From: a candidate division TA06 bacterium B3_TA06
GTDB lineage: Bacteria > Hydrothermota > Tepidihabitantia > B3-TA06
DNA length: 58,261 bases
NCBI GenBank assembly: GCA_005223075.1
Contig: NJBO01000014.1
Span: 1 to 58,261 of the forward strand
Reading direction: 5' to 3'
Part shown: positions 9,695 through 41,019 of the stretch, one piece after another
Position numbering within the stretch: position 1 is the stretch's first letter
How the letters are laid out: each line of letters opens with the position of its first letter
The notes under the pieces: model-generated
What the model saw: only the letters and a program-made list of their open reading frames with translations
Databases searched by the model: none
What the model was told of the DNA's origin: nothing
Made by a program: the position numbers and the translations under genes

Positions 9695-9732
9695 CACCCC
9701 ACAAGGTCGCTCCGCGCTCTTGCGGGGACCCC
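9695..9732 (+). repeat. A-type hairpin repeat, 38 nt
   Basis: CACCCC, A, a 9-nt arm (CAAGGTCGC), loop TCC, the partly complementary arm (GCGCTCTTG), C, then GGGGACCCC. It has the same 38-nt layout as copies at 12600, 12991, 25320 and 30847. It lies just upstream of the minus-strand gene starting at 9690. Confidence 0.75.
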
Positions 9733-9820
9733 GGATGCGATCCGGCTATCTGACCCGAGCGGAAGATGTTCCCTGGATGTATCATCCTGGCAGCCTTACT
9801 CGTTGCTTTAGCCGTCCAGC

Positions 9821-9897
9821 CACCTCCCCCTTGATGGGGGAGGGTAGGGTGGGGGTGATCCCCCTCCCCTTTATCCCCTCCCACCAGGGGAGGGGAA
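9821..9897. repeat. C/G-rich D-type repeat pair, inverted
   Basis: A stretch of about 300 bases (9691-9993) has no gene. It contains two copies of a C/G-rich element in opposite orientation: CACCTCCCCCTTGATGGGGG then AGGGTAGGGTGGGGGTGA (9821-9859), followed by its inverted relative with ATCCCCTCCC and CAGGGGAGGGG (9860-9897). Related copies occur at 22378-22472 and, inside a coding frame, at 24019-24059. Confidence 0.7.
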
Positions 9898-9993
9898 CTC
9901 AGACCTGCCAGATGCAAACCTTTCGTCTCTGGGAGACGGCCGGGCATCCTCAAAAAGCCATAGCGATTTTGACTCTCGTGGCGTTCCATAAGG

Positions 9994-10434
9994 TCAATCC
10001 TCTTTATTCACGGAAAACCGCGGCTTTGGCGCCTTATAGCGGATGCGTTCGCGGGCGCGCTCCTCGGCTCCTGCAAGCTCTATCTTGCCCGAGGCAAGGT
10101 CGGTAAGGGTGCGGTCGGCAAGCTCGCGCTTGTCCTTGGCGATTCCTTCCTGTTCAACGCGGGCGTAGAGCCGGTAGACGGTCATCTGAAGTGAGGCCTC
10201 CTTCACCAGATTTCGGGCACCCTCGGATTGAATTGCGGTAAAATCCAAGGGCACGATGTAGCGCTTTGCAAGCTGTGCATCAACGTAGGCCTCGGCCCAG
10301 AGTATCGCGGTCTCGATCTTTGTATCGTCTATGACCTTCTCGGTGATCGAGTGTGAGACATCATCGTCGGTGAGTCTAGCCAGAACGTCTGTGGGAACAG
10401 CGGCTTTTACTTCGTCTACTGTGAGATATCTCAT
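9994..10434 (-). CDS. DUF1320/gp36-like head-tail connector protein
   Basis: A 146-residue protein starting at ATG 10434 (MRYLTVDEVKAAVPTDVLA), preceded by GGGG. The pattern 'YLT.DEV...VP...LA.LTDD', then 'IETAILWAEAYVDAQLAKRY' and 'LVKEASLQMTVYRLYAR' is that of the Mu gp36-like DUF1320 family, which sits at the head-tail joint. Position just after the capsid genes fits. The C-terminus (RIRYKAPKPRFSVN) is basic. Confidence 0.75.
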   Translation of the reverse strand: MRYLTVDEVKAAVPTDVLARLTDDDVSHSITEKVIDDTKIETAILWAEAYVDAQLAKRYIVPLDFTAIQSEGARNLVKEASLQMTVYRLYARVEQEGIAKDKRELADRTLTDLASGKIELAGAEERARERIRYKAPKPRFSVNKED

Positions 10435-10435
10435 T

Positions 10436-10621
10436 TTATCCCCCACGAGAATCTTTCAGCTTCTCGACGAGCCCGCGCTTGACGAACTCCCGCGCGATCT
10501 TAGCCGAGAGCAAAGCCTCTTCGCCTGGAAGATACCAGCGTCCCCCCATCTTCACCGGTCGCAGGAACTGAACCTTATAGGTACGTACAGCGCGGGACGT
10601 TCGAGAAGTCTTGGCAGTCAT
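10436..10621 (-). CDS. Small phage head protein, unknown
   Basis: A 61-residue basic protein (MTAKTSRTSRAVRTYKVQF...). Its ATG overlaps the capsid stop by one base (TAATG), so it is probably translationally coupled. The motif 'KVQFLRPVKMGGRWYLPGEE' followed by 'AREFVKRGLVEKL' resembles small head-associated proteins of Mu-like phages found between capsid and gp36. No enzymatic features are visible. Confidence 0.6.
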   Translation of the reverse strand: MTAKTSRTSRAVRTYKVQFLRPVKMGGRWYLPGEEALLSAKIAREFVKRGLVEKLKDSRGG

Positions 10622-11640
10622 TATTCAGGTGCGATTACTGACTCGCAGTAAACGATACACTCGGGCCAGTGGGGAACGGGCAGGGGACGGGACTCGGCAA
10701 GAAGCCAGAGCATTGATGGATCGGCCTCGGTCCAGCTCTTGGCGAAGAAGGGCTGGGCCACGGCAACTGCGTTGTCCAGGTCGTAGACCAACGCGTAGTG
10801 CATGCGGAACGGACCCTCTGAGGCCACCATGATGAAGGATTTCGGATCGATGAAGTTCTGGCTTGCGCCCGCAGAGTCGGTGTAGGTGGCGTCGTACTCG
10901 TAGATGTCCACACCCACCAAACGACCGATGTAGTTGGAGCGCCCCACCGATATCTCGCCCACGTTGAAGTGGCGGTAGTTGAGAATCTCGCGCACCTTGG
11001 AGTGACCCAACAGGGCGTCAATCGCGTCGGTGCCGGCGATGGCCACGTCAGCCGAGTAGCCGGTGTCGGATGAGATGAGCCGCTTCCAGGTGAGGATGTC
11101 CTGCACAGGATCGGAGGTGGTCTCGTCCCAGTAGTTGCCCGTGGTAAGGGCAGGCTTGTGGCTCTCCGGCAACAGGTAGTCTATCTTGAACTCGATGTTC
11201 TCCTGGGAAACGATCAACTCGCCCTGAAGGGCCTGGGAGGCCATCCACTCGGTGGTGCGGACGATCATGTTCTTAAGGTCTGAAAGTTCAACACCGATGC
11301 GCTGGTTCTTGTATTCGTCGATCCCGCCCTCTCCGAGGTAGAGTGCTGCTCCGGGTGAGCGAACCGAGAGTAGATCGTTTGCGGCCAGCACCTTCTTGGG
11401 GCGAAGGCGCGGCGCTCTCACAGACTGCATCTTGCGTGCGAGTTCTGCTACGACGATGCCGCCCTCAACCGGTGAGACGAACGGAGCCAGGCGTTTCCCG
11501 CCGATCACCACGTCAACGTCTATCTCCTCGGCCAAAGCCTGAACCTTGGTCTTGAACACCTTGTCAGTAAGGAACGATGGTGCAGCAGGGATCTCGTTGA
11601 TGGCGGTGGTTAAAGCACGCCAGTGAAATAGATCAGCCAT
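10621..11640 (-). CDS. Phage major capsid protein (E-type)
   Basis: A 339-residue protein with the pattern of the major capsid protein E family (HK97 fold): an N-terminal 'LTTAINEIPAAPSFLTDKVF', 'VRAPRLRPKKVLAANDLLSV', 'RIGVELSDLKNMIVRTTEWM' and C-terminal 'PKSFIMVASEGPFRMHYALV'. It forms the icosahedral shell. The start ATG 11640 has GGAGGTAGGAA before it. The decoration gene precedes it by 10 bases, the usual order in lambda-like and Mu-like head modules. Confidence 0.85.
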   Translation of the reverse strand: MADLFHWRALTTAINEIPAAPSFLTDKVFKTKVQALAEEIDVDVVIGGKRLAPFVSPVEGGIVVAELARKMQSVRAPRLRPKKVLAANDLLSVRSPGAALYLGEGGIDEYKNQRIGVELSDLKNMIVRTTEWMASQALQGELIVSQENIEFKIDYLLPESHKPALTTGNYWDETTSDPVQDILTWKRLISSDTGYSADVAIAGTDAIDALLGHSKVREILNYRHFNVGEISVGRSNYIGRLVGVDIYEYDATYTDSAGASQNFIDPKSFIMVASEGPFRMHYALVYDLDNAVAVAQPFFAKSWTEADPSMLWLLAESRPLPVPHWPECIVYCESVIAPE

Positions 11641-11650
11641 TTCCTACCTC

Positions 11651-12583
11651 CTAGAGACTGAATTTGAAGTAGATGCCGCGCTCTTGACAGTCGCGGGCAA
11701 TCTCTTGCTTCTGGGTATCTGATGTGCCTGTGGGCCAGACGACACCTTCGGGGTTGAAAACGCCGTGTACGTAGGTTATGGTATTGACATCTTCAGATGT
11801 GGCGTCTATGTCGCGTGCAAGGATGGCGCGGCAGATGTGGGTCCCGTCGGTGGAGCAGTAGTCGGCATCGATGGTAGAGTGGAGTTCGGGTGCATCGTCG
11901 AACTCGATTTCGATCTCGCCAGTCTCATAGTTGATAGAACCGCGGCCGTCCGTGCCTACCAAGTTACCGTGCCCATCGTCGCGCAGAACCTTGGCGGGGT
12001 CTTCATTAGTGTAGATGCGAACAGTCCTTTCGATGACCTTGGTGTAGGAAAGGAACTTCCTCCACTCCTTCTGGCTGCCATCGGCGTCGGTCTCGATATC
12101 CTCGCCGGTGTGCGCGGTAAGAGAGCCGATGTAGGTTGCAAGGATATCTTTCTCACTCTTCGGTGCAGTCTTGAACGTCACGCTATACTCTCCCGATGCA
12201 TATTTGATGGTGCCGGCGCCGGGAGTAGGAGTGGCGTCGGATTTGAGCGTGCCGTCGCCCTGATCGGTAAACGTCTCGTATTCGGTGTCGGAGATCAAGG
12301 CCCTGATTACCAGCGATCCAGGTTTGACACCAGGGTTGGGAAGCGTACCGCTGAAGGTGTATTGCGAACCGGTGCCGTCACCGATGTCCTGATCCTCGTA
12401 GGTGGTTCCAGGGGTTATGGGCGCGTATTTGCCGTTGGAGAGCCTGCGACCTAGGAGCGTTCCGCGGGAAAGCTCCCCGCAGCCGCTTGCAATCGTCACC
12501 GGCAGCTCAACACGGGGATGGTCGCCCGACAGGAGCTTGTCCTGGGACAAAGGTGTTTCTGTTACTCCGTAGCTTTCAGGCAT
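11651..12583 (-). CDS. Head decoration protein with two inserted beta modules
   Basis: A 310-residue protein whose ends look like a lambda gpD-type decoration protein: residues 25-60 (ELPVTIASGCGELSRGTLLG) and 245-310 (HICRAILARDIDATSEDVNT ... CQERGIYFKF). Between them lie two related modules, about 85-153 (GTIKYASGEYSVTFKTAP) and 185-243 (GSINYETGEIEIEFDDAP). A third relative is in the sheath. Usual decoration proteins are near 110-140 residues, so the middle is an expansion that probably projects from the capsid surface. Start ATG 12583 follows GGAGG. Confidence 0.7.
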   Translation of the reverse strand: MPESYGVTETPLSQDKLLSGDHPRVELPVTIASGCGELSRGTLLGRRLSNGKYAPITPGTTYEDQDIGDGTGSQYTFSGTLPNPGVKPGSLVIRALISDTEYETFTDQGDGTLKSDATPTPGAGTIKYASGEYSVTFKTAPKSEKDILATYIGSLTAHTGEDIETDADGSQKEWRKFLSYTKVIERTVRIYTNEDPAKVLRDDGHGNLVGTDGRGSINYETGEIEIEFDDAPELHSTIDADYCSTDGTHICRAILARDIDATSEDVNTITYVHGVFNPEGVVWPTGTSDTQKQEIARDCQERGIYFKFSL

Positions 12584-12599
12584 CTAGAACCTCCTTTAA

Positions 12600-12637
12600 C
12601 ACCCCACGAGAAAACTTTGTTTTCTCGCGGGGACCCC
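12600..12637 (+). repeat. A-type hairpin repeat, 38 nt
   Basis: CACCCC-A-CGAGAAAAC, loop TTT, GTTTTCTCG-C-GGGGACCCC; the 9-bp arms pair perfectly. It lies between the protease/scaffold-like gene and the decoration gene of the minus-strand head operon. Confidence 0.85.
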
Positions 12638-12699
12638 GGGATAGAATCCGGGGGTTGTGTTTTTATAACGATGCTTCTTCCTCATCATCACACCTCGCC

Positions 12700-13467
12700 T
12701 TACTTGAGGGCCTTGGCTATCTTATGCCCCAACGCCTCAAAGGAGTTATCCACACGAGCCTGGGGAGAAGCAAACTCGGAGAGCGGAACAAGCGCGGGCA
12801 AGGACTCGATGAGACCGATGAAGAAATCCAGCGGAGAGATCGGCTCAAAGCCTTCTTGCGAAAGACTCTTCTCCTGTGATAGCCCGGCTATGAAGCCCAC
12901 CAGCGCCTTGTGTCCCCATGCAGGCAGCAGCCGCCCCTGGTGCGCCAGGCGATCCACCAGCCGCTGGGCTTCAGCAAGCCGTTCGTCTTTTACCCCACTC
13001 GAATACTTCGTATCCGAGCGGGGACCCCGATCGACCTGGCTTTCGCTTTGAGGTTCCGCTTCACTCTTTGCATCTTCTGCCTCTTCAGTACCCGCATCGG
13101 TAGTCGCGGTCTGTGATTCCTGGCTGGCCTTCTCTATTTGAGCCAGGCGTTTCTTTAGAGCGCCCAGGCGATCCTCAACCGCGCTCCGCGTCTCCTCGTC
13201 TAGATCGGTCAGGGCTTCGCTGGCAGCCTTGAGTGCTGCAGGGACCACGCACGGCTCGCCATCCACAAGATCGACCACAAGCATCGGGTAGGCCTCGAAG
13301 GACTCCGAATCGGCTGAGGTGTCGATCCAGAGGGAGTAAGCCGCAAGCGCTGCCCAACCGAAAGCCTCCTCGAGACGCTTCGCTGCCACCTGCGCGTCCC
13401 AGGGATAATCCGTGGGGGCAAAGCTAAGCTCCTCAAGCGGCGTTAGTTGTGTTTTTTTAGGAGTCAT
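12700..13467 (-). CDS. Prohead protease/scaffold-like phage protein
   Basis: A 255-residue protein from ATG 13467 (MTPKKTQLTPLEELSFAPTD), preceded by AAGGAGG. The segment 'YPWDAQVAAKRLEEAFGW' ... 'VVDLVDGEPCVVPAALKAAS' matches the 'WD...A..RV..W' and 'DG....VP.AL.AAA' pattern found in Mu I-like and other prohead protease/scaffold proteins. An acidic linker and a C-terminal helical part follow. No catalytic triad could be located, so scaffold function is more likely. A 38-nt A-type repeat is translated inside it (residues about 147-159, reading RGPRSDTKYSSGV). Confidence 0.55.
   Translation of the reverse strand: MTPKKTQLTPLEELSFAPTDYPWDAQVAAKRLEEAFGWAALAAYSLWIDTSADSESFEAYPMLVVDLVDGEPCVVPAALKAASEALTDLDEETRSAVEDRLGALKKRLAQIEKASQESQTATTDAGTEEAEDAKSEAEPQSESQVDRGPRSDTKYSSGVKDERLAEAQRLVDRLAHQGRLLPAWGHKALVGFIAGLSQEKSLSQEGFEPISPLDFFIGLIESLPALVPLSEFASPQARVDNSFEALGHKIAKALK
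12991..13028 (+). repeat. A-type hairpin repeat inside a coding region
   Basis: TACCCC-A-CTCGAATAC, loop TTC, GTATCCGAG-C-GGGGACCCC, the same 38-nt layout as intergenic copies. It lies within the minus-strand protease/scaffold-like gene and keeps its frame open, coding RGPRSDTKYSSGV in a linker after an acidic region. Confidence 0.8.
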
Positions 13468-13546
13468 CCACTGACCTCCTTCCTCTTTAACATGATCATA
13501 TTGTGATGGGGTTTGTGAAGAACACAATAGAAACCTGACGAATTAA

Positions 13547-13623
13547 TACCCCATTCGAACGGAACCGTTCGAATGGGGGCCCCAAATAAAAGCTCCTTTT
13601 CGCTCGAAGCGAAAAGATCGCAG
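13547..13623 (+). repeat. Composite A+B hairpin repeat
   Basis: Module A: TACCCC, arm ATTCGAACGG, AA, arm CCGTTCGAAT, GGGGGCCCC (13547-13583). After an AT-rich spacer comes module B: GCTC, CTTTTCGCT, loop CGA, AGCGAAAAG, ATCGCAG (13592-13623). With the inverted copy at 13657-13736 it fills the otherwise gene-free interval 13468-13794 upstream of the phage head operon and of the divergent lipoprotein gene. Confidence 0.85.
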
Positions 13624-13656
13624 AAGAACCTATCGGTTGCCTCGTTCTTATCTTTA

Positions 13657-13736
13657 TTGCGATCTTTTGCCCGAAGGGCAAAAGGAGCATAAATTTTCGG
13701 GGTCCCCAAGCAAACGTGAAGCGTTTGCTTGGGGTG
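13657..13736 (-). repeat. Composite A+B hairpin repeat, inverted copy
   Basis: Read on the minus strand this is module A (CACCCC-A-AGCAAACGC, TTC, ACGTTTGCT-T-GGGGACCCC; 13699-13736) followed by module B (GCTC, CTTTTGCCC, TTC, GGGCAAAAG, ATCGC). It faces the 13547-13623 copy about 33 bases away. The variable arms of the two copies are unrelated in sequence. Confidence 0.85.
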
Positions 13737-13743
13737 CATATGC

Positions 13744-13771
13744 TTGACTTCCGGCAAAGTTCGCATATCTT
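13744..13771 (+). promoter_or_regulatory. Sigma-70-like promoter for lipoprotein gene
   Basis: TTGACT (13744-13749), 16-base spacer, TATCTT (13766-13771), 24 bases before the ATG at 13795. Confidence 0.6.
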
Positions 13772-13794
13772 AACAAGAGCGTTAGGAGAAACCG

Positions 13795-14328
13795 ATGAAG
13801 AGGAATATTTGGCTGCTGCTTGCAGGAATTGTGGCTTTGGGACTCGCAACCTGTAGCGAAGACCCAGAGCCTGTGCTTAAGGAACTGACCCAGAAATACT
13901 GGCAGGCGGTGCTTGAAGGCCACATACAAGAAGCATACGGGATGCTTTCTGATAGCTCACGGGTCAGCGTTACTCTCCAGGAGTTCAGCGAGGCGATGAG
14001 GTTCGTAGCGCTTGACGGCGAAGGAGTTGACGAGTTCAGAGAGGCCTTTGCCTCAAAAGCAAAACTAACCATCCTCGGGATAGAGGCAAAGCGCAAGGAA
14101 GCCACGGTCCACGTCATACTACTCGTGCCGGCTTTAGCAACGTTCCAGACAGACCTACAGGCGCAGTTGGCCTCCGGCGAGATTGAAGTTGATGATGAAG
14201 AAGCCTGGATTCTAGCACAGATGACAACAGCGCTTGAGGAGAACCGCCTCCCTACCCAGGAGTTACGGCTCAAGATGAGGTGGGTTCTTGTAGATAACCG
14301 GTGGCGATTAGTATTCGGAGAGGGTTGA
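13795..14328 (+). CDS. Lipoprotein, NTF2/DUF4878-like paralog 1
   Basis: A 177-residue predicted lipoprotein: MKRNIWLLLAGIVALGLATC with a lipobox ending at Cys20. The mature part opens with the shared motif 'LTQKYWQAVLEGHIQEAYGM' then 'LSDSSRVSVTLQEF', the pattern of small NTF2-like DUF4878 domains. Three paralogs follow nearby (14360, 14914, 18597), with the same length and W-Q-A-V...A-Y-M-L core. It is likely anchored to a membrane; its ligand is unknown. It sits next to the prophage head operon but on the opposite strand, with its own promoter. Confidence 0.7.
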   Translation: MKRNIWLLLAGIVALGLATCSEDPEPVLKELTQKYWQAVLEGHIQEAYGMLSDSSRVSVTLQEFSEAMRFVALDGEGVDEFREAFASKAKLTILGIEAKRKEATVHVILLVPALATFQTDLQAQLASGEIEVDDEEAWILAQMTTALEENRLPTQELRLKMRWVLVDNRWRLVFGEG

Positions 14329-14352
14329 CGAACGAGCACCTGGCTGTATCCT
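14325..14352 (+). promoter_or_regulatory. Sigma-70-like promoter for second lipoprotein gene
   Basis: TTGACG (14325-14330) overlaps the stop of the preceding gene, then a 16-base spacer and TATCCT (14347-14352), eight bases before ATG 14360. The leader would be very short or absent, so internal starts or leaderless translation are possible. Confidence 0.5.
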
Positions 14353-14359
14353 TCGGGTC

Positions 14360-14917
14360 ATGAAGCATATCCCCCGTGTAGTTGGTGCGCTTTTGATTCT
14401 TGGAACGCTGCTTGTCTCGGGTTGCGCCAAGAAGGACAAGCAAAGCGCTGAGGTTATGGTCACCGACTACTGGCAGGCTGTATTCTCAGGGAAGGCAAAA
14501 AGGGCCTACTCTATGCTTGCCCGAGAGAGCCGCCGCAGGATAAGTTTGGGGGAGTATGCGGCGGGGATCGCCTTTGGGATCGACCACTCACCGGTCAAGG
14601 ACAGCTTCTGGGAAGCCTACACCACTCTCTGCGATGTAAGCGTGGGAACGGTTAAAATCACCGCTGACACGGCCTGGGTTGACGTTCTGCTCACCCTGCC
14701 TGGGTTGCCGATGCTTGTTGAAAAGCTTACGCCCAAAGCCGACTCCCTATTTGAGCCTTCCGACTCGCTTGCCCGAAAACACTGGCTGCTGCGAAAACTC
14801 GCATCCGCCCTGAAAGATCATCGCTACATGACGCTTCTGATGCATCTTTCCCTGAAACTTCAATATGAGTGCGGCGGGTGGCGTCTTGTATATGAATACA
14901 AACCGGAGGAGAAATGA
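14360..14917 (+). CDS. Lipoprotein, NTF2/DUF4878-like paralog 2
   Basis: A 185-residue lipoprotein (signal peptide ending LLVSGC at about residue 22). The core 'VTDYWQAVFSGKAKRAYSML' and 'SRRRISLGEYAAGIAFGI' align with the paralogs at 13795 and 14914. The C-terminal strand pair 'LKLQYECGGWRLVYEY' matches the end of the others (W-R-L-V-F). The stop overlaps the next start by four bases (ATGA), so paralogs 2 and 3 are co-translated. Function unknown. Confidence 0.7.
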   Translation: MKHIPRVVGALLILGTLLVSGCAKKDKQSAEVMVTDYWQAVFSGKAKRAYSMLARESRRRISLGEYAAGIAFGIDHSPVKDSFWEAYTTLCDVSVGTVKITADTAWVDVLLTLPGLPMLVEKLTPKADSLFEPSDSLARKHWLLRKLASALKDHRYMTLLMHLSLKLQYECGGWRLVYEYKPEEK

Positions 14918-15456
14918 AGCGTAATTTATTGTTGCTTGTGGGCGCGGCACTTATTGCGGTTGTGCTTGCCGGATGTCCGCGGGAGGACGAGGCCCCAATC
15001 GTGCGCCAACGGGCAGAGCGATACTGGTATTACCTATTCAAAGGCCAGATCCGCTCCGCATACAACATGCTGGATAAAAAAAGTCGGGGGACGCTTACTT
15101 ACGGGGAGTACGCACGAAAGGTAGGGTTCGGCCCATCCAACCTCCTCGAGGTTCAGGAGTACTGGAAGGCTTACTACCCCAACACCCGGATAGAGGCAGG
15201 CAACGTCTCTGTTAAGCGCAAGAAAGCGATCGTCTCCCTTATCCTTACGCTCCCGGACCCGTCGTGGTTCCAGGACGAGGCATACGCCGAGGCCAAGCGC
15301 CTGGGGCTTGAAGGGCACGAATACGCCATCTTCATGATCCGCGCCCAAACCGAGGCCCTGAAAAAGGCTGAGATTTCTGTTGTGAAGATACAGGAAAACA
15401 CCCAGCTTGTGAAGGAAGACGCCGAGTGGCACATTGTCTTCCGTGAGGAAGATTAA
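14914..15456 (+). CDS. Lipoprotein, NTF2/DUF4878-like paralog 3
   Basis: A 180-residue lipoprotein (LIAVVLAGC lipobox) with the family core 'AERYWYYLFKGQIRSAYNML' and 'SRGTLTYGEYARKVGFG'. It follows GGAGGAG and overlaps paralog 2 by four bases. It ends 'LVKEDAEWHIVFREED', the same final strand as its relatives. The three clustered copies suggest tandem duplication with strong divergence. No catalytic residues are evident. Confidence 0.7.
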   Translation: MKRNLLLLVGAALIAVVLAGCPREDEAPIVRQRAERYWYYLFKGQIRSAYNMLDKKSRGTLTYGEYARKVGFGPSNLLEVQEYWKAYYPNTRIEAGNVSVKRKKAIVSLILTLPDPSWFQDEAYAEAKRLGLEGHEYAIFMIRAQTEALKKAEISVVKIQENTQLVKEDAEWHIVFREED

Positions 15457-15554
15457 TCAATTGGTGTTATCCTTTTAGATAATTCTCTCGCCTTCTTTCA
15501 GAAACGCTCCTAATAGATCTTACGCAATATAGCGGCTTATCTTTTGATCCGGTT

Positions 15555-15570
15555 TGGCATGAAAATTGCT
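15555..15570 (+). promoter_or_regulatory. Sigma-54-like (-24/-12) promoter
   Basis: TTGGCATGAAAATTGCT contains GG at 15556-15557 and GC at 15568-15569, separated by exactly ten bases, matching TGGCAY-N5-TTGCW. It lies about 30 bases before the ATG of the SBBP-repeat gene at 15600. A sigma-54 promoter needs an enhancer-binding activator, which is not encoded in this window. Confidence 0.5.
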
Positions 15571-15599
15571 TAAATAAAATTGAATAACAAGGAGGAATC

Positions 15600-17246
15600 A
15601 TGACAAAACAACGTGCTAATGCATCCTTTGCAGGGATAGCGTTGTTCCTTTTTGCAACCACCCTTGCGGCCCAGGTCACCGAAGAATGGGTAGCCCGTTA
15701 CGATGGTCCGGCAAGCGGCCGGGATGAAGCCCGTGCCATGGTAATAGACGATTCAGGCAACGTCTACGTTACAGGCTACAGCGACGGTTCAGGAACCTTA
15801 GATGACTATGCGACCGTCAAGTACAACTCATCTGGTACAGTGCAATGGGTAGCACGGTATGACGGTCCGGCAAGCTATGGGGATGATGCCAAGGCCATAG
15901 CAATAGACGCTGCAGGCAACGTCTACGTTACAGGCGACAGCTGGGGTTCAAGAACCACCTATGCGACCGTCAAGTATAATTCCTCAGGTGTAGAAGAATG
16001 GGCAGCCCGGTACGACGAACCGGAAAGCTATGGAGATTATGCCACTGCCATAGCGGTTGACGATGCAGGTAACGTATACGTTACAGGCTACAGCTACGGT
16101 TTAGACTTCTTTGGCTATGACTATGTGACCGTAAAGTATAGCCCTAATGGAGAAGAGCAGTGGGTTGCCCGGTACGACGGTCCGGTAAGCGGCCGGAATA
16201 TAGCCAATGCAATAGCAGTAGACGGTGCAGGCAACGTCTACGTTACAGGTTGGAGCGACGGTTCAGGAACCCACCCGGACTATGCTACCATAAAGTACAG
16301 CCCCTCAGGCGCCGAGCTGTGGGTTGCCCGGTACGACGGACCCGCAAGCGACGTGGATGCCGCCTGGGCCATGGCAATAGACGATAAAGGCAATATCTAC
16401 GTTACAGGTGAGAGCGACGGTTCAGGAACCGGTAAAGACTATACGACCGTAAAGTACGACTCATCAGGGGTCGAGCAATGGGTTGCACGGTACGATGGTC
16501 TGGTAAGCAGCATAGATGAAGCCTATGCCATAGCCCTGAACGGCTCAGGCAACGTATACGTTACAGGTTATAGCTACGGTTCAGGAACCGACTTTGACTA
16601 TGCGACCGTAAAGTACGACTCATCAGGGGTCGAGCAATGGGTTGCACGCTACAGTGTATCTGCAGACTTCGCTGATGAACTCAGACCCACCATCGCAGTG
16701 GGCGGTTCAGGCAACGTGTATATAACAGCCACGAGCCAGTTTGAAGACACCGAGTATGACTATGTGACAATCAAGTATAATTCAGCTGGCGAGGAACAGT
16801 GGATTGTTCGATACAATGGTCCGGGGAACGACGATGATGCGGCCGTTGCAATAGCGGTAGACAATTCAGACAATGTCTATGTCACAGGCTATAGCATGGG
16901 TGAAGGTACTAGCTACGACTACGCGACTATCAAGTACAGCCAGGGGCCGGGTGTGGCTGAGGCTTCTCCTGACGTGCCCGGCCATCGACTGGAAGTTGCC
17001 CAACTTACACCCGAGCCTGTAATCACCTACACCTTGCCTTCTTCCAGTTCAATCTCCCTAAAGGTCTACGACGTTACCGGCAAGCTGGTAAGGACGCTGG
17101 TCTCAGGAAATCAAGAGGCAGGCACTCATACCGCTTGCTGGGATGCGAGGAATGACTCAAACCAGCAGGTGTCCGCAGGGCTTTACTTTGTCTTGCTTGA
17201 GACTGCAGACTACCGCGCAACCGGAAAATTGGTGGTGGTGAGGTAG
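15600..17246 (+). CDS. Secreted SBBP beta-propeller protein with C-terminal sorting domain
   Basis: A 548-residue secreted protein. After a signal peptide ending TTLAAQ there are eight repeats of about 48-54 residues with the pattern 'WVARYDGPAS...A.AI..D..GNVYVTG.S.G.GT..DYATVKYN.SG', the SBBP/beta-propeller motif. From about residue 450 comes 'ITYTLPSSSSISLKVYDVTG' with 'GTHTACWDARND' and 'SAGLYFVLLE', a FlgD-like/type IX-sorting-type module. It is probably exported and surface-bound or released. ATG 15600 follows AAGGAGG. A close paralog follows at 17278. Confidence 0.85.
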   Translation: MTKQRANASFAGIALFLFATTLAAQVTEEWVARYDGPASGRDEARAMVIDDSGNVYVTGYSDGSGTLDDYATVKYNSSGTVQWVARYDGPASYGDDAKAIAIDAAGNVYVTGDSWGSRTTYATVKYNSSGVEEWAARYDEPESYGDYATAIAVDDAGNVYVTGYSYGLDFFGYDYVTVKYSPNGEEQWVARYDGPVSGRNIANAIAVDGAGNVYVTGWSDGSGTHPDYATIKYSPSGAELWVARYDGPASDVDAAWAMAIDDKGNIYVTGESDGSGTGKDYTTVKYDSSGVEQWVARYDGLVSSIDEAYAIALNGSGNVYVTGYSYGSGTDFDYATVKYDSSGVEQWVARYSVSADFADELRPTIAVGGSGNVYITATSQFEDTEYDYVTIKYNSAGEEQWIVRYNGPGNDDDAAVAIAVDNSDNVYVTGYSMGEGTSYDYATIKYSQGPGVAEASPDVPGHRLEVAQLTPEPVITYTLPSSSSISLKVYDVTGKLVRTLVSGNQEAGTHTACWDARNDSNQQVSAGLYFVLLETADYRATGKLVVVR

Positions 17247-18417: not shown

Positions 18418-18449
18418 GCTCCTTTTCGCTAAAAGCGAAAAGATCGCAA
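18418..18449 (+). repeat. B-type hairpin repeat after a stop codon
   Basis: TGCTC, CTTTTCGCT, loop AAA, AGCGAAAAG, ATCGCA: a perfect 9-bp stem with a triloop, beginning about three bases after the TGA at 18414. Probably part of the 3' end of the SBBP transcript. Confidence 0.85.
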
Positions 18450-22474: not shown

Positions 22475-23128
22475 TCATTCCAACATTTTTTGCACCGCCA
22501 CCACGCGGCCGATGATGCGGTCGTCCTCGCCCAGAACGTGAGGCGGGTAGTCATGATTAGCAGGAACAAGGATGTGAACGATCTTTTCTCCATGCTGAGT
22601 GATCTTGAGCTCCTTGATGGTCGTCTCGCCATCTACAAGAACTACCACAATAGCGCGGTTAGGAGGCGATGGGTCCGGGCATACGATAACCCTGTCGCCG
22701 TCTGCAAGCCGCGGCTGCATCGAGTCGCCGTGAACTATAAGCGCGAAGGTCTGAGGGTGCCTTGCGGTAGGCGCAGGCACTGGCAGATACTCAAGGATCA
22801 CCTCAGCCGTGTAGTGAGGGAACCCGGCAGGCACCTGACCAAGCACCGGAATCCAGCGAACAGGTAAACGGTCGGATTCGGGTACCTCAGGGACTTGCTC
22901 CATCTCACCCTCACCGGTCACAAGCCAGTGAAGCGAAACCTCAAGCTCTCGTGCGATCCTCACCAGGAGTTCCACGTCAATCCCGCGCTCGCCGCGCTCA
23001 TACCGCACAAGCGAGTTGCGGTGGATCCCCAAACGAGCGCTCAGCTCCTCCTGGTTAAGCTCCCTCGCTCGCCGTGCAGCACGGATGCGCTGACCTACCA
23101 TCTTGTCCGAGGTTTGTTCTCCAAGCAT
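22475..23128 (-). CDS. Prophage repressor, HTH plus S24 LexA-like peptidase
   Basis: A 217-residue CI/LexA-type repressor. Residues 10-70 are a Cro/CI HTH (IRAARRARELNQEELSARLG, LGIHRNSLVRYERGERGI). Residues 90-215 are an S24 domain with cleavage site Ala101-Gly102 (VLGQVPAGFP), nucleophile Ser136 (HGDSMQPRL) and Lys172 (TTIKELK). It would hold the lytic promoter off until RecA-stimulated self-cleavage during DNA damage. It is divergent from the Gam-like gene, and three operator-like sites lie between them. Confidence 0.9.
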   Translation of the reverse strand: MLGEQTSDKMVGQRIRAARRARELNQEELSARLGIHRNSLVRYERGERGIDVELLVRIARELEVSLHWLVTGEGEMEQVPEVPESDRLPVRWIPVLGQVPAGFPHYTAEVILEYLPVPAPTARHPQTFALIVHGDSMQPRLADGDRVIVCPDPSPPNRAIVVVLVDGETTIKELKITQHGEKIVHILVPANHDYPPHVLGEDDRIIGRVVAVQKMLE

Positions 23129-23162
23129 CTTATCCCCAATCGGCTGTGGAAAGGCTCATAAG

Positions 23163-23253
23163 ACACCCAATTGGTTACAATTTAGCCCTAAACACCTTGA
23201 CATGTCACCCGTTTGGGTTATAATTAGACCGATGACTGAAACCATTTGGGTGA
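23163..23253. promoter_or_regulatory. Three repressor operator-like sites
   Basis: Three copies of an imperfect palindrome CACCC-N2-4-TGGGT: ACACCCAATTGGTTAC (23163-23178), TCACCCGTTTGGGTTA (23205-23220) and AACCATTTGGGTGA (23240-23253). Site 2 fills the spacer and touches the -10 of the rightward promoter; site 3 is just downstream of the start of transcription; site 1 lies on the repressor side. This is the arrangement expected for a phage immunity switch. Confidence 0.65.
23197..23224 (+). promoter_or_regulatory. Consensus early promoter
   Basis: TTGACA (23197-23202), 16-base spacer, TATAAT (23219-23224), both perfect. It drives the plus-strand operon starting with the Gam-like gene and is overlapped by operator-like site 2. 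Confidence 0.8.
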
Positions 23254-23298
23254 TTTTACTCATAAAACTCCCTATGTCAAGGGGGTAATGGGGTAATA

Positions 23299-24350: not shown

Positions 24351-24637
24351 CAGTTAACCTGTTTGGAGTGACGCTTTTGGGCAGCGTGATCGTTGCCGCT
24401 ATCGTTGCCAAGCTAAAGGTTTGGCTTAAGACCCAGGGCTGGGTAAACACCGCTTTAGCCCTTGGGGTTGGCGTGGCCCTCGGAGCGCTTCTGTATCTTA
24501 TCCAACTTTTACTTGCCCAGGCGGGTATGGTTGAACAGGTTATTCCCCTGATTGCGGCGCTCGTGCAAGGGCTTTTCTCAGGCGGGATAGCCGCAGGCCT
24601 GTGGAAAGCAGCACGCACCCTGGGACGAAAGAGATAA
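24332..24637 (+). CDS. Small membrane protein, holin-like
   Basis: A 101-residue protein with three hydrophobic stretches (VTLLGSVIVAAIVAKL, TALALGVGVALGALLYLIQL, VIPLIAALVQGLFSGGIAAG) and a basic end (ARTLGRKR). Size, topology and operon position between early genes and the portal fit a holin that would form the lysis pore. No endolysin is seen in the window. Start ATG 24332 has AGGAGGAAC before it and overlaps the previous gene. Confidence 0.55.
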   Translation: MWGEELTVNLFGVTLLGSVIVAAIVAKLKVWLKTQGWVNTALALGVGVALGALLYLIQLLLAQAGMVEQVIPLIAALVQGLFSGGIAAGLWKAARTLGRKR

Positions 24638-24639
24638 CC

Positions 24640-24984: not shown

Positions 24985-24986
24985 TC

Positions 24987-25319: not shown

Positions 25320-25391
25320 CACCCCACGCGAAAACTCCGTTTTCCCGCGGGGACCCCTAAATCCTCACTTTCTCCTGTGGAGAAAGGATCG
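25320..25391 (+). repeat. A-type hairpin plus degenerate B module
   Basis: CACCCC-A-CGCGAAAAC, loop TCC, GTTTTCCCG-C-GGGGACCCC (25320-25357), beginning at the base after the TGA stop at 25319. A B-like module follows (CTCACTTTCTCC, TGT, GGAGAAAGGATCGG; 25364-25391) and ends just upstream of the portal ribosome site. Confidence 0.8.
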
Positions 25392-26640: not shown

Positions 26641-27043
26641 ACTGTCCATGGTCAATACATCGTTACCAGGTAGAAGGGGGTTGAGGTCGTCGAGGAGTAG
26701 TACCGGGAAGAGAATAAAGTTGTCATTAAGTTGATTGTAACCGAGGGAACGGAGTTTATCAAGAGGAGAGAGACTTCCCATACCCTTACCGAAGTGCGGT
26801 CGTTTTACGTTGTAGATATACTGCCACGCCTGAGCTGATCTTAACATGTCATCAGCATTGTTCCAACTGAGTATGCAAGGTAGATAAAACTCCTCATCAT
26901 CGGTAAGGTGACTTCTTTCTACACGACCGTTATACCCCTTACGTCCCAGGGGTATCCTTGCCAGCACAGCGTTCCAGGGGCTGTAGAGGGTTTCTTGGAG
27001 TCTCTCCAGCGTCCTTTGGCTCTTTCCACCGAACTCTTTCTCC

Positions 27044-27108
27044 CTCCTTTTCTCCTTCGGAGAAAAGATCGGGGTCCCCAAGCGGTTGCAAAGCAACCGC
27101 TTGGGGTG
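27044..27108. repeat. Fused B and inverted A hairpin repeats inside transposase
   Basis: Module B on the plus strand (CTC, CTTTTCTCC, TTC, GGAGAAAAG, ATC; 27044-27070) runs directly into an inverted A module (GGGGTCCCC-A-AGCGGTTGC, AAA, GCAACCGCT-T-GGGGTG; 27071-27108). The A arms pair perfectly over 9 bp. Both lie inside the transposase reading frame. Confidence 0.85.
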
Positions 27109-29915: not shown

Positions 29916-30845
29916 ATGAAGATGAAGAAGTTGTGCTTGACCGCCTTTGTGGTCTTTATGTCTATCTCTATCCCATCGAGCGTTCTTTATGCCCGCAAAC
30001 CTTCGAGGGTGGAGGAGCAGCTGCGGGTCGCGGAGGCAAACGAGTTGCAGCTCCTTATAAGCATGGACGGAGAGATGCTTTTCGGCAGGATCACGAAGAT
30101 CGTTGCCGATTACGTCCACTTTGAGACAGACGGGGATACGACAATTATCTTCATACCTCAGATCAAGGAGGTCAGGGAGGTCACCTCCGACAACATAAAG
30201 AACGGCAGGTACTGGTTTCCCAACCCCAACGCCACGAGGCTGTATCTATGTCCCACCGCTCGTTTGTTACGCAAGGGGCAGGGCTACGTTGCAGCTTACT
30301 ATATCCTTGCACCTTTAGTTGCATACGCGGTGACGGATAACTTTACCATTGCGGGAGGAGCTTCGTTTCTTACCGCGGTTAATTTCGGCGGAGCCTACTT
30401 ATTACCTAAAGTGGGTGTAGCTCTTGGAGAATACGTCTCGTTATCCGCAGGAGCTGTGGCTGCACAGGGGTTTGGCCAGGAGGGTTTCAATCCGACCCTT
30501 CTTTTGGGTTATGGTGTCGGCACCTTTGGGAGGCCCGATGTCAGCATTAGCGTTGGTGCTGGTTACGGTGTTTCCCGGCTATATACGCAAGGGCCCGAGG
30601 AGAAAACAATGTTCTACTCTACACCTGGATTCATGTTGGGCGGCGAGTTAAGGGTGACGCGAAAGATAGCATTAGTCACCGAGAACTACTTCATTAGGGA
30701 GTGGGGGAACTACAGGCCGGTTATCTCCTACGGGATGCGCTTCTTTGGCGAGACCTTCAGCCTGGAGGGTGCTTTCATCTACACCAAGGATTTAATTGAC
30801 GAGTTTCTGGGATTTCCATTCGCCAGCATCGTCTACAACTTTTAG
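29916..30845 (+). CDS. Secreted or outer-membrane protein of unknown function
   Basis: A 309-residue protein with a signal peptide (AFVVFMSISIPSSVLYA). Residues 45-95 form a small beta domain (LLISMDGEMLFGRITKIVAD, VHFETDGDTTIIFIPQ) of the type linked to nucleotide-independent envelope proteins. The rest has alternating Gly/aromatic strands (NFTIAGGASFLTAVNFGGAY, SISVGAGYGVSRLYT) that look like an outer-membrane barrel. It ends with an aromatic residue (SIVYNF), as outer-membrane beta barrels do. No named family was recognised. Confidence 0.6.
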   Translation: MKMKKLCLTAFVVFMSISIPSSVLYARKPSRVEEQLRVAEANELQLLISMDGEMLFGRITKIVADYVHFETDGDTTIIFIPQIKEVREVTSDNIKNGRYWFPNPNATRLYLCPTARLLRKGQGYVAAYYILAPLVAYAVTDNFTIAGGASFLTAVNFGGAYLLPKVGVALGEYVSLSAGAVAAQGFGQEGFNPTLLLGYGVGTFGRPDVSISVGAGYGVSRLYTQGPEEKTMFYSTPGFMLGGELRVTRKIALVTENYFIREWGNYRPVISYGMRFFGETFSLEGAFIYTKDLIDEFLGFPFASIVYNF

Positions 30846-30846
30846 A

Positions 30847-30984
30847 CACCCCACGAAGTCACTACGTGACTCCGCGGGGACCCCGGGATAAATACTCCTT
30901 TTGACCAGAGGTCAAAAGATCGCAGGGAAAAACGTAGGGGCCGACTTGGGCGCCTTCGGCGTCCGCTTCGCGTAAGTCGGCCCG
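30847..30984 (+). repeat. A+B hairpin repeats and a GC palindrome
   Basis: Module A (CACCCC-A-CGAAGTCAC, TAC, GTGACTCCG-C-GGGGACCCC; 30847-30884) starts two bases after a stop codon. Module B (CTC, CTTTTGACC, AGA, GGTCAAAAG, ATCGCAG; 30896-30925) follows. A third hairpin, GTAGGGGCCGACTT ... AAGTCGGCCC (30934-30984), sits between this and the end of the convergent gene at 30989. Together they cover the whole convergent gap. Confidence 0.85.
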
Positions 30985-36244: not shown

Positions 36245-36447
36245 CACTCCTTCGTTTGATTCTGCTCGTTCTGGGCGGGTTGACTTCGATAAAGGCAGTT
36301 ACCCGCAAGGAGATACTGGCTAGGGCTAAAAGCTTTGCCGAACTCACCTGGTTTGCGGACTCGGCAAACACCGTGGCCTGGGAGAAGATGTATGAGCGCT
36401 ACGGGTGCGAGGAGCATCTAATTCGGTGTCTCCACACGGTTGCGTAG
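36226..36447 (+). CDS. Truncated secreted protein gene
   Basis: A 73-residue product (MATLPVTLLRLILLVLGGLT signal, then KEILARAKSFAELTWFADSA). It overlaps the previous gene by 19 bases. The helix 'VTRKEILARAKSFAELTWF' looks like the start of a longer amidase- or NlpC-like secreted protein, but the frame ends at once inside an inverted A-type hairpin repeat (36425-36462). The coding signal stops about 36420. I read it as a gene cut short by the repeat. Confidence 0.5.
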   Translation: MATLPVTLLRLILLVLGGLTSIKAVTRKEILARAKSFAELTWFADSANTVAWEKMYERYGCEEHLIRCLHTVA

Positions 36448-36462
36448 CAAGCGTGTGGGGTG
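36425..36462 (-). repeat. A-type hairpin repeat, inverted, degenerate flank
   Basis: On the minus strand CACCCC-A-CACGCTTGC, TAC, GCAACCGTG-T-GGAGACACC: 38 nt as elsewhere, arms intact, right flank altered from GGGGACCCC. It contains the stop codon of the truncated gene. Confidence 0.75.
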
Positions 36463-38856: not shown

Positions 38857-38916
38857 TACCCCGATTATAAATGCTCCTTTTCTCCTCCGGAGAAAAGATC
38901 GCAGTAAATAAGGGGT
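38857..38916 (+). repeat. B-type hairpin with A-type head and outer inverted repeat
   Basis: TACCCCGATTATAAATGCTC, then CTTTTCTCC, loop TCC, GGAGAAAAG, ATCGCAG, and GGGGTAT at the end, pairing with ATACCCC at the start. The head begins directly after the TGA at 38854-38856. Confidence 0.8.
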
Positions 38917-40121: not shown

Positions 40122-40149
40122 ATACTACGCGTTGCATTGGGTTTGTCAA
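40122..40149 (-). promoter_or_regulatory. Sigma-70-like promoter
   Basis: On the minus strand TTGACA (40149-40144), 16-base spacer, TAGTAT (40127-40122), just upstream of the start at 40104 or 40116. Confidence 0.7.
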
Positions 40150-40398
40150 CCCCGCTTTGAGGGTGGGAGGGCGCGCTCTCCAGACCGCTAATTCCTTTGG
40201 TGTGCATCAACTATGTTATGCGGCAACGACACGGTCGTTGCACTCCATATAAATCTAATCAGCGTAAATCTGCGTCATCTGCGGATAAAAATGGTGAGAC
40301 CGCCCTCCAAGGGAAGCGGAAAATGAAAAGCTTTTTTAACCGCATACGTCCGCGCCGCGTACGCCAGGGGACCCCGATCATTCACTTATGAAATGACC

Positions 40399-40462
40399 AC
40401 CTTTTGTCCAACTTTTGTCCACCTTTTGGCCACCTTTTGTCCACCTTTTGTCCACCTTCTGG
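40399..40462 (+). repeat. 11-bp tandem repeat, about six copies
   Basis: ACCTTTTGTCC is repeated with small changes at 40399, 40410, 40421, 40432, 40443 and 40454. It lies in a 376-base gap (40150-40525) with no gene; the same gap holds a degenerate A-type end (AGGGGACCCC at 40356-40365). 11 is not a multiple of three, so this is not a coding repeat. Confidence 0.85.
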
Positions 40463-40525
40463 TTAGGTTTCACAACCAATAACACCCCTCGCGCCTGTAA
40501 GCTTTTATGCCTGAAAAAGGGCAGG

Positions 40526-40861
40526 CTAGATGTTCAGCCGGTCGGAGTAGGCACCCAGGATGGGTACACGCCAGAGATCGCCGTTTGCCGCTCTGATTGC
40601 AGCTACAATCGAGATAGCTATATAAACCAGATAAAGGAATCCCTCTACTACCCAGAACGCAGTTCCGATGGGTTTAATCCATCCCAGGATTAATTGCAAT
40701 ATCCGGAATGCAAGCACGGTCAACGCAGCTGCTGCGAAGATCACAAGGGCCTGACGACCATGGTGCTTGACCAAGGTGCTGTCCCCTGAAAGGAAAAGTG
40801 GGATAAAGAACAGAGGCGGTATGTAGCCTATCGCGGCCAGCACATTCTTATTCTCACTCAT
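40526..40861 (-). CDS. DUF4870-like small membrane protein
   Basis: A 111-residue protein with three hydrophobic segments (VLAAIGYIPPLFFIPLFL, LVIFAAAALTVLAFRILQLI, VVEGFLYLVYIAISIVAAIR) and the DUF4870/Tic20-like motif 'KHHGRQALVIFAA' between them. It ends in a short polar tail. Size and topology fit the family. Role unknown. Confidence 0.75.
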   Translation of the reverse strand: MSENKNVLAAIGYIPPLFFIPLFLSGDSTLVKHHGRQALVIFAAAALTVLAFRILQLILGWIKPIGTAFWVVEGFLYLVYIAISIVAAIRAANGDLWRVPILGAYSDRLNI

Positions 40862-40870
40862 ACTGTATTA

Positions 40871-40898
40871 ATTCTATCACAAAGTCCGTCGATGTCAA
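40871..40898 (-). promoter_or_regulatory. Sigma-70-like promoter
   Basis: On the minus strand TTGACA (40898-40893), 16-base spacer, TAGAAT (40876-40871), ten bases before ATG 40861. Confidence 0.65.
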
Positions 40899-40904
40899 CC
40901 TTAT

Positions 40905-41019
40905 AACACCCCGTACCCCTTCGGGGCATCTCCATAACTTTCTGGGGCTAACGCCCCTTAATCAAGGACATAACACCCCGTACCCCTTCTCCTTTTGCTC
41001 TCCGGGCAGAAGATCACAG
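40905..41019 (+). repeat. Degenerate A heads and B module
   Basis: Two copies of AACACCCCGTACCCCTTC (40905 and 40972) and a degenerate B module (CTC, CTTTTGCTC, TCC, GGGCAGAAG, ATCACAG; 40989-41019) fill the gap before the MarR promoter. Confidence 0.6.

Follow-up and report, generated by a model that had tools for sequence, protein, structure and literature searches.

Two REP-like hairpin families with constant feet and mostly copy-specific stems in the genome of a TA06 bacterium

The window analyzed here is the 58,261-nucleotide contig NJBO01000014.1 of candidate division TA06 bacterium B3_TA06, and it carries two short hairpin repeats, module A and module B. A sequence-only reading of this DNA had claimed nine A and six B sites; all nine and all six were found, at positions within 1-4 nt of those given. 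On the plus strand, A lies at 9695..9732 (exact feet), 12600..12637, 12991..13028, 13547..13583, 25320..25357 and 30847..30884. Inverted copies on the minus strand lie at 13699..13736, 27071..27108 and 36425..36462, the last being degenerate with two mismatches in its feet. Eight of the nine are 38 nt long, as the reading's "almost always" had it, and the copy at 13547 is 37 nt. Module B lies on the plus strand at 13591..13623 (core 13593-13620 plus outer pairs), 18418..18449, 27042..27073, 30895..30925, 38872..38904 and, as a further and degenerate copy, 40989..41019, and inverted on the minus strand at 13657..13689. Two weak A-like matches occur at 28919 and 40338, and no match to Rfam 15 reached the gathering score in the window.

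The setting of these copies varies. The stretch 13547-13736 is the one inverted A-B...B-A group of the window, and its outer copy at 13699 has a TTGACT box 7 nt away. The A copy at 12991 lies within a called ORF (12700-13467, minus strand), while the first base of the copy at 25320 directly follows the stop codon of the ORF at 24987-25319, with a Mu-like portal gene just downstream. The B copy at 27042 overlaps the foot of the inverted A copy at 27071. The A copy at 30847 begins 1 nt past the end of the ORF at 29916-30845; B at 30895 follows it after 10 nt on the same strand, and a plus-strand GTAG-type REP-like hairpin (30934..30983, its end placed by eye) lies 8 nt past this B copy, making 30847-30983 a three-module array of A, B and a GTAG repeat.

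Orthologous positions in genomes G1 and G3 show several fates for the window copies. The arms at 9695 are identical in G1 at 93% flank identity, with one foot base differing in G1. At 12600 the G1 arms are the same and the G3 arms wholly different; at 12991 the arms are common to G0 and G3 and differ in G1, where the upstream flank is also more diverged. The A core at 13547 is replaced in G3, with the feet and a AAATAAAA tail kept, and the inverted A at 13699 has no copy at the G3 orthologous site. The inverted B at 13657 has the same arms in G0, G1 and G3. In the B copy at 13591, the loop and the outermost variable pair vary among the three genomes, and their states look as if one outer pair had undergone ordinary compensation and the loop had changed besides. 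The A copy at 30847 is shortened in G1.

The genome-wide count proposed in the sequence-only reading was made with the patterns ACCCCAN{16,30}GGGGACCCC for A and TCCTTTTN{6,20}AAAAGATCG for B, which returned 129 and 117 strict copies, respectively, and 0 in the reversed-pattern control for each; positions were listed for about 100 of each. As in REPs, both modules are short palindromes of 20-40 nt in high copy. Copies sharing most of the stem, which REP families would lead one to expect, were not the rule: 91 of 93 38-nt A copies in the sampled 850 kb of this genome are distinct, although about a quarter of A copies do have a close paralogue. Despite their differing sequences the arms do pair, as had been claimed, the paired fraction being 0.853 for the 91 distinct A 38-mers of this sample against a shuffled mean of 0.447 (maximum of 500, 0.497), and 0.893 for B against 0.504 (maximum 0.601). 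The further claim that arms differ completely is too strong. Of 92 A copies, 23 have a paralogue at most 2 nt off in the 23-nt variable core, against a mean of 4.9 (maximum of 200, 18) under an independent-pair null; some such pairs lie within duplicated stretches. The short B arms often recur, 15 of 49 being identical to another copy (null mean 6.2). Where dispersed A copies have near-identical arms and unrelated flanks, the shared part is the core only, from ACCCC to GGGGACCCC. Variation at arm positions is largely by transitions (A/G, C/T).

Read on the complementary strand, A runs from 5'-GGGGT through a CCCC foot, one pair that is either G.T or A-T, and nine further pairs, typically with one purine-purine mismatch among them, to a GNA loop with C-G closing and a GGGGT. 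Architecture was counted for A copies of 38 nt and B copies of 28 nt. Exactly one pyrimidine-pyrimidine mismatch was found in 151 of 233 distinct A copies, which were pooled from four related genomes and are not independent (null mean 96.4, maximum 118 of 1000). By genome the counts were 56 of 90 (null mean 37, maximum 51), 50 of 79 (34, 51), 41 of 57 (24, 35) and 32 of 49 (19, 30), and the position of the mismatch floats along the stem. A TNC loop with C-G closing occurs in 160 of the 233 A and 33 of 67 B copies. Hairpins of the type d(GC-GNA-GC) are stable. Under DNA parameters, the complementary strand is the more stable one for 208 of 233 A copies and for 60 of the 67 B copies. RNA parameters favor that strand as well (190 of 233 A), so energy does not decide between DNA and RNA. 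Neither end carries an unpaired REP tag, GTAG or CGTC, A ending in GGGGT/ACCCC and B in TGC/GCA pairs. Conserved feet and a largely conserved loop go with arms that keep to one architecture. Selection on structure, which the earlier reading had suggested, is supported across the family in another form, with one floating mismatch kept beyond independence and a mostly constant loop. Constant feet, loop and shape combined with private stems suggest that the elements are recognized by shape, not by sequence.

Both modules are extragenic, as REPs are. With called genes covering 83% of the sequence (own gene caller), intergenic copies number 104 of 109 for A and 78 of 80 for B, and some copies come directly after a stop codon or, as judged by eye, a tRNA 3' end. 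The orientation of A to genes is without preference (30, 25, 24 and 21 in four classes). The 3' side of A is A-rich and lacks a T-run, a T-rich stretch lying on the 5' side, so A has neither the hairpin followed by a T-run nor the fixed orientation downstream of genes that marks an intrinsic terminator. The promoter consensus is TTGACA/TATAAT. Up to 120 nt from A on its 5' side, 52 promoter-like matches read away from it; 31 of these start 3-11 nt from the A edge, and the A copies concerned therefore lie upstream of that transcript; the 39 matches on the 3' side are scattered.

Neighboring copies were counted among 409 A and 236 B matches with up to 2 mismatches in four genomes. B follows A on the same strand at 4-13 nt in 71 cases, and A follows A on the same strand in 36, 21 of them at 7 nt. 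Opposite-strand A/B neighbors number 19, after 17 self-overlapping A-A matches on opposite strands, artefacts of the palindromic foot, were set aside; same-strand neighbors (71 A-B and 36 A-A) thus dominate over the inverted pairs (19) that would form a REPIN unit. Of 178 B copies, 11 are followed by a GTAG-type motif at 0-14 nt. In a tandem set in which at least 4 sites were counted in two genomes, the 23 A-A mates differ on average at 11.8 of 23 nt, as much as random pairs do (11.3). Slippage as the origin of the tandem A-A pairs is unsupported, as one of these mates differs by 1 nt and the other 22 by 7-17 nt.

The A feet were found in eight of 41 genomes (this one and 40 relatives), all eight in one family, and B in the same eight plus one single match elsewhere. 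Within the genus, G002 (86% complete) has 6 A copies, whereas its congeners have 97-129. To compare copies site by site, orthologous positions were required to have flank matches within 12 nt of the element at no less than 85% identity on each side and were merged by genome pair and alleles, which reduced 356 raw anchors to 75 comparisons; mean flank identity at orthologous positions is about 91% between G000 and G001. Among 45 A comparisons, 21 are identical, 17 differ at 38 nt and 7 differ in length; among 30 B comparisons, 15 are identical, 7 differ at 28 nt, 4 differ at another equal length and 4 differ in length. The raw comparisons (up to 1 mismatch, both directions counted) gave 62 same, 66 changed, 30 absent or short and 12 other for A, and 48 same, 47 changed, 4 absent and 4 other for B.

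Divergence between orthologues is bimodal. In 37 equal-length A comparisons, 26 show 0 arm differences, 4 show 1 and 4 show 2, and the others show 7, 10 and 11; in 17 B comparisons, 12 show 0, one shows 1, two show 3 and two show 7. The slow A class comprises the 34 comparisons with up to 2 arm differences; it has 9 one-sided and 0 two-sided changes of stem pairs, and base-by-base selection on structure at a fixed site is not seen in it. The fast class is small, with 3 A comparisons and, at 3 sites, 4 B comparisons. Two of the A comparisons (L329/L343 and L352/L405) are in duplicated stretches, where paralogy is therefore possible. The A comparisons have 6 one-sided and 10 two-sided changes, 6 of the latter from one Watson-Crick pair to another (WC to WC); the B comparisons have 0 one-sided and 6 two-sided changes, 4 of them WC to WC. 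Orthologous sites change in two modes: inherited copies drift slowly, and a few sites have had the whole core exchanged in one block.

The coordinated arm replacement proposed in the sequence-only reading was observed directly, in the form of block replacement between nearly unchanged flanks, at a few orthologous sites. In B, 7 of 11 core positions changed against 5 of 161 in the flank at L413/L406 and 7 of 163 at L330/L344; in A, 9 of 21 against 8 of 200 at L325/L394 and 14 of 21 against 10 of 81 at window 13547/L351, the Fisher tests being on chosen sites. The latter two replacements fall outside the fast-class count because of unequal length or flank identity below 85%. The G3 arms at window 13547 are 1 nt off another G3 copy and identical to the G1 counterpart of that copy. 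Elsewhere, where G3 and G4 have a tandem pair, G1 has one copy, whose junction lies at a repeated CGCGGGGACCCC; beyond B, the G1 flank there is unlike that of G3/G4. The flank is not unchanged at L325:4547, as G1 carries additional sequence, including an A copy, just upstream of its changed B. A further triple comparison that failed to align cleanly was left out. A is absent from one sister species at L312:5066, L320:665, L320:2492, L324:14294, L363:4971 and window 13699. The direction of gain or loss is clear at one of these sites: at L320:665, A interrupts (by eye) the loop of a palindrome of the host, and the sister has this palindrome intact, so that A is an insertion there. Ten empty or shortened sites showed no consistent target-site duplication, with one candidate (GTG at L320:665), unlike MITEs, whose terminal inverted repeats go with such a duplication.

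Modules A and B are high-copy and intergenic, present or absent between sister species, and adjoin at short, narrow spacings. We think it probable that they are two very small, non-autonomous, REP-like families of mobile hairpins that are recognized by shape and whose arms change by turnover or conversion. A protein acting on single-stranded DNA would read the feet, the loop and the shape and not the arm sequence, and arms ignored in recognition would be free to differ. New copies may enter beside existing ones with dissimilar arms, and tandem pairs may then collapse by recombination between the identical feet, or another copy may convert a short tract; either event would swap the arms of a site as a block. 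Resident copies would drift and decay base by base. In the long term only hairpin-competent copies would propagate, and arms would therefore stay complementary across the family. It is a tentative possibility that arms are exchanged mainly by tract conversion between dispersed copies, with template switching at the identical feet and no new insertions; since this only narrows the favored explanation, our confidence in the two overlaps. Replaced cores with unchanged linkers and flanks are consistent with it, as are copies in the same genome that resemble donors of several alleles, such as that of the G3 arms at window 13547 and that of the B arms GACCAGAGGTC at L406, which are those of another G1 copy. 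However, the feet offer only about 8-15 nt of identity, several replaced alleles, among them CGCCATAGGCG at L344 and the G1 arms at L331:2745, lack a close match in what was sampled of the genome, and tandem pairs with unlike arms point to insertion as well. A dedicated system that swaps cores between copies of fixed architecture (feet, GNA loop, one purine mismatch) with arms of their own, the mobile element being recognized by nothing but its shape and spreading by programmed arm swapping, seems improbable to us.

Structured RNA elements such as terminators, attenuators or mRNA stabilizers, held by selection while their arms drift by compensatory substitution, would account for the strong complementarity across copies, the transitions in the arms, the copies behind stop codons or (by eye) tRNA 3' ends and the one-pair compensatory difference at B 13593. 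We nevertheless regard this as unlikely given the mixed orientation of A to genes, the A-rich sequence after A with its T-rich side 5', the 31 of 52 promoter-like matches that read away from the 5' edge, the presence of copies that varies between species, the 0 two-sided changes in slow A orthologues and the window's lack of Rfam matches at gathering. Less likely still is correction within a single copy, by hairpin-templated repair or strand switching, which would pair single mutations and could invert a loop. Two such loop inversions separate orthologues, GCGTTGC to GCAACGC at L318:3940 and TCC to GGA with arms nearly kept at L352:4753/L402:11913, but this process leaves unexplained 7 to 14 changes per core of 11-21 nt and new arms that match another copy, and one-sided changes persist in slow copies while most A copies keep their mismatch. 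The compared genomes are metagenome-assembled drafts of 42 to 240 contigs within the genus, and assembly or binning could in principle create such patterns. This is refuted for the existence of the families and very improbable overall, since the same families recur in eight genomes and at orthologous positions with conserved flanks, and A-type copies also occur in the named records WOR-3 RS_17_4 and Stahlbacteria CSMAG_1024.

A candidate for the protein envisaged in the favored explanation was sought among Y1 transposases. Y1_Tnp matches occur in 10 of 13 genomes searched and in 3 of 6 other genomes with the same feet (some of them incomplete drafts), and G004, which is 93% complete and has 105 A copies, had no Y1 match at E 0.001. 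Six Y1 genes were inspected for nearby repeats: a GTAG-type repeat lies within 130 nt of three and at about 590 nt from one, with none at the locus of the other two; a B copy lies within 170 nt of two, and a degenerate A copy (2 mismatches) within 190 nt of one. With adjacency so mixed, no RAYT partnership is claimed, and the search yielded no mobilizing protein. Among 35 genes with A or B on both sides in four genomes, no transposase was recognized from the first 60 residues.

Known systems share some of these features. As cited passages of Di Nocera et al. 2013 (PMC3733652) describe them, GTAG and CGTC REPs are likewise palindromes of 20-40 nt, high-copy, intergenic and tandem or clustered, with G.T pairs. 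Most GTAG families in that account hold sub-families with alternative complementary stem residues, so the premise of the earlier reading that REP copies share stem sequence was too strong. In contrast to the REPs so described, A and B carry neither tag (the unpaired end of A would be GGGGT, on the complementary strand), their arms are private to nearly every copy, and the mismatch floats. REPINs, in the passages cited from Bertels and Rainey 2011 (PMC3116915), have conserved ends and a less conserved middle that still pairs, with compensatory changes common, and are proposed to move as hairpins. A REPIN is there an inverted REP pair with a RAYT partner, whereas A and B occur mostly as lone hairpins or as neighbors on one strand, with arms directly between feet and loop. 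TnpA-REP/RAYT proteins, according to the portions cited of PMC8266576 and PMC6006769, recognize a folded hairpin strand-specifically by its foot, its loop and, in E. coli, a mid-stem mismatch; the E. coli hairpin has a conserved AA-GC bulge and a GTAG tag, whereas the A/B mismatch floats. Class 3 Y1 genes of Acidobacteria and Proteobacteria go with yet another foot, CnGA, in the cited part of PMC6006769.

Since REP-like repeats are usually defined by sequence, families recognized by shape are easy to overlook; the hundreds of copies in this family-level lineage would hardly be grouped by a search for sequence similarity. Comparison of orthologues separates compensation at a fixed site from copy turnover, two processes often mixed, and makes turnover visible. 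The single floating mismatch and the loop amount to a testable prediction of what the recognizing protein reads. Double-hairpin elements occur in fungal mitochondria. Searches of the open-licence literature for GGGGACCCC and related strings gave nothing on bacterial repeats among the matches listed, and a search for REP with WOR-3 found none.

Repeats with GGGGACCCC feet also occur in unrelated bacteria, where, as in ordinary REPs, the stems are mostly shared. Their feet are identical to those of A, their length is about 31-41 nt, the tandem period in some is about 40-45 nt, and a C-TNC-G loop or one mismatch is sometimes present; they differ from A in having few stem families per genome, with many identical copies. 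A record of Propionibacteriaceae, for instance, has 57 matches with one stem and minor variants, and stems were judged on 19 of 91 matches in Pullulanibacillus (G044) and on 55 of 80 in Defluviitaleaceae (G041). The sequence-only reading had taken a few families with identical arms to speak against variable stems; such families are what these other genomes hold, and not what was found in the present bacterial family. Feet common to unrelated phyla suggest a further broad REP class besides GTAG and CGTC. A scan of genome contigs for the A pattern returned at least 115 stretches, which makes this spread a lower bound, and some of its single matches are probably chance or coding sequence. G005 has repeated stems at contig ends, considered as possible marks of an autonomous element in a reading by eye of the first 700 bases of five loci. 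Viral contigs carry the A pattern too, in at least 120 stretches.

A and B look like mobile hairpins of the REP (short palindromic repeat) type, with a recogniser that reads feet, loop and shape. Hairpins of both families are present at the window positions assigned to them by the sequence-only reading. The draft genome of which the window is contig 14 comprises 2.41 Mb, and a pattern search of it returned 129 A and 117 B strict copies and 0 copies for the reversed control. Strict A copies in this genome (G000) and seven relatives of its family (G001-G007) number 129, 97, 6, 107, 105, 57, 29 and 30, respectively, by the same search. A was found in 0 of the 33 other genomes among the 41 searched (own plus 40 relatives), and B is present in G000-G007 with one single match elsewhere in the 41. 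A-type copies occur in the records Candidatus Stahlbacteria CSMAG_1024, which G004 matches, and candidate division WOR-3 RS_17_4, and the host is accordingly a bacterium of WOR-3/Stahlbacteria-like type. G002, which is of the same genus and 86% complete, has strict copies numbering just 6 for A and 9 for B, where its congeners have 97-129 and 90-117, and this low copy number offers a useful handle for tracing the mobiliser of A and B.

An 850,221-base sample of the own genome contains 93 A 38-mers, of which 91 have distinct sequences. The paired fraction of arm positions is nevertheless 0.853 (shuffles: mean 0.447, maximum 0.497 of 500), and reaches 0.83, 0.85 and 0.86 in three sister genomes, those of related species. 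Variation at arm positions mostly exchanges purine for purine or pyrimidine for pyrimidine. The sequence-only reading that arms differ completely between copies goes too far: 23 of 92 A copies have a paralogue no more than 2 nt away (independent-pair expectation: mean 4.9, maximum 18 of 200), and this excess indicates that copying with arms conserved also occurs. Some of the close paralogues are located in duplicated stretches, and dispersed A look-alikes have only the core in common, from ACCCC to GGGGACCCC, with unrelated flanks.

Hairpin architecture was compared across 233 distinct A and 67 B copies from four genomes. The inner nine-pair A stem contains 0 mismatches in 23 copies, 1 in 133, 2 in 58, 3 in 12 and more than 3 in 7. 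Pyrimidine-pyrimidine mismatches, which are purine-purine on the complementary strand, are lacking in 65 A copies, exceed one in 17 and number exactly one in 151; 1000 simulations treating positions as independent gave exactly one in 96.4 copies on average and in 118 at most. This excess holds genome by genome, narrowly in G001 (50/79; null maximum 51) and clearly in the other three, and the single mismatch floats, mainly across stem places 9 to 13. A.C combinations in the A stem number 86 (G.T on the complementary strand) and G.T 32; the pair beneath the inner stem is mostly A.C or A-T, which the complementary strand shows as G.T or A-T. A TNC loop with C-G closing, read as C(GNA)G on the complementary strand, occurs in 160/233 A and 33/67 B. 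The complementary strand is the more stable by DNA parameters in 208/233 A and 60/67 B, and by RNA parameters in 190/233 A and 21/67 B. B has two extra outer pairs, and its pair -1/+1 covaries (G-C 135, C-G 23; n = 163 copies).

Strictly anchored orthologues among four genomes provided 45 A and 30 B comparisons; G001 is ~91% identical to the own genome across aligned stretches. The whole element is identical in 21/45 A and 15/30 B comparisons, and arm differences are bimodal. Among 37 equal-length A comparisons, 26 differ at 0 arm positions, four at 1, four at 2, and one each at 7, 10 and 11; among 17 for B, 12 differ at 0, one at 1, two at 3 and two at 7. Stem pairs in the slow A class (few differences) carry 9 one-sided and 0 two-sided changes. 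Two-sided changes are confined to the fast classes of A and B, which are small, with 2/3 A comparisons lying in duplicated stretches and 2/4 B comparisons representing one site. Clear block replacements are seen between sampled loci L413/L406 (B), L330/L344 (B) and L325/L394 (A), and between window 13547 and G003 (A); because the sites were picked for differing, Fisher values of ~1e-6 characterise these sites and do not test the whole family. The G003 counterpart of window 13547 keeps the feet along with the AAATAAAA tail, its core is replaced, and the new arms are 1 nt off another G003 copy and the same as that copy's G001 counterpart. Loop inversions separate the orthologous hairpins L318:3940 and L338:19189 (GTT/AAC) and L352:4753 and L402:11913 (TCC/GGA).

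One sister is without A at several anchored sites, and the A copy at window 13699 is missing at the G003 site. A host palindrome at L320:665 has its loop split by an A copy but is whole in a sister, so this A copy is an insertion. A tandem A pair of G003 and G004 is a single copy in G001, with the junction within a repeated CGCGGGGACCCC; collapse or gain at the foot could explain this, though the flank past the neighbouring B differs. Tandem mates are on average as dissimilar as random copies, 22/23 differing by 7-17 of 23 nt.

Copy turnover together with core exchange would make arms differ between copies, and resident copies would decay. From the strand asymmetry, loop, mismatch and likeness to TnpA-REP recognition, as set out in PMC8266576 and PMC6006769, we infer that a single-stranded DNA enzyme may be involved. 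The tags defining the two known REP super-families (GTAG and CGTC) are absent from A and B, and the shared stems expected of REPs are not found; A and B are therefore assigned to neither. The A pattern is also found in unrelated bacteria, where repeats with A feet behave like ordinary REPs, each genome having a few stem families among the matches listed. A Propionibacteriaceae record contains 57 matches with nearly one stem, in tandem at ~44 nt; Pullulanibacillus pueri has one main stem among the 19 of its 91 matches that were listed; and, among the matches listed, an Acidobacteria record has a handful of stems and Clostridia and Defluviitaleaceae records several. Within the window's family, some stems are repeated in G005, of another genus, and almost none in G006 and G007. 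Y1 transposase matches were obtained in just 3/6 outside genomes tried, so that RAYT, the Y1 transposase partner of REPs, is no evident requirement.

With our own simple gene caller (coding fraction 0.83), 104/109 A and 78/80 B are intergenic, in mixed orientation relative to genes. Outward-reading promoter-like boxes begin 3-11 nt from the A 5' edge in 31 of 52 matches within 120 nt (285 copies); the 3' side has 39 matches and no comparable cluster near the edge. The -35-like boxes at this spacing read away from A, for example at window 13699 and L325 4347, as though promoters had A placed at their upstream edge or were targeted by it there. Same-strand A-then-B neighbours spaced 4-13 nt number 71 over four genomes; A-then-A neighbours number 36, of which 32 are spaced 6-10 nt. 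B is followed at 0-14 nt by a GTAG-type repeat (GTAGGGGCCGACC...GGTCGGCCC) in 11/178 cases, including window 30847-30983, where the repeat occupies 30934-30983. This repeat also occurs at L304 1346 and 1909 and in many other places, and borders the Y1 transposase gene in G001:C32; it has 36 matches on both strands of the 850-kb sample, some probably one palindrome counted twice. In several genomes A copies adjoin arrays of an 11-nt, TTTTGACCANC-like unit (L328, L340, L435-L440).

A and B copies also sit within a Mu-like prophage stretch. Mu-like prophage genes occupy window 6544-13467 and 22475-26597, and include DUF2586 (6544-8355), Mu Gp36 (9994-10434), capsid E (10621-11640), head decoration D (11651-12583), an S24/CI-type repressor (22475-23128) and Mu portal (25377-26597). 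Window 5564-15767 is collinear with G001, and the prophage is therefore old or retained. An ORF called at 12700-13467 encloses the A copy at window 12991-13028; together with the 7-nt linker that usually accompanies it, A measures 45 nt, a multiple of three.
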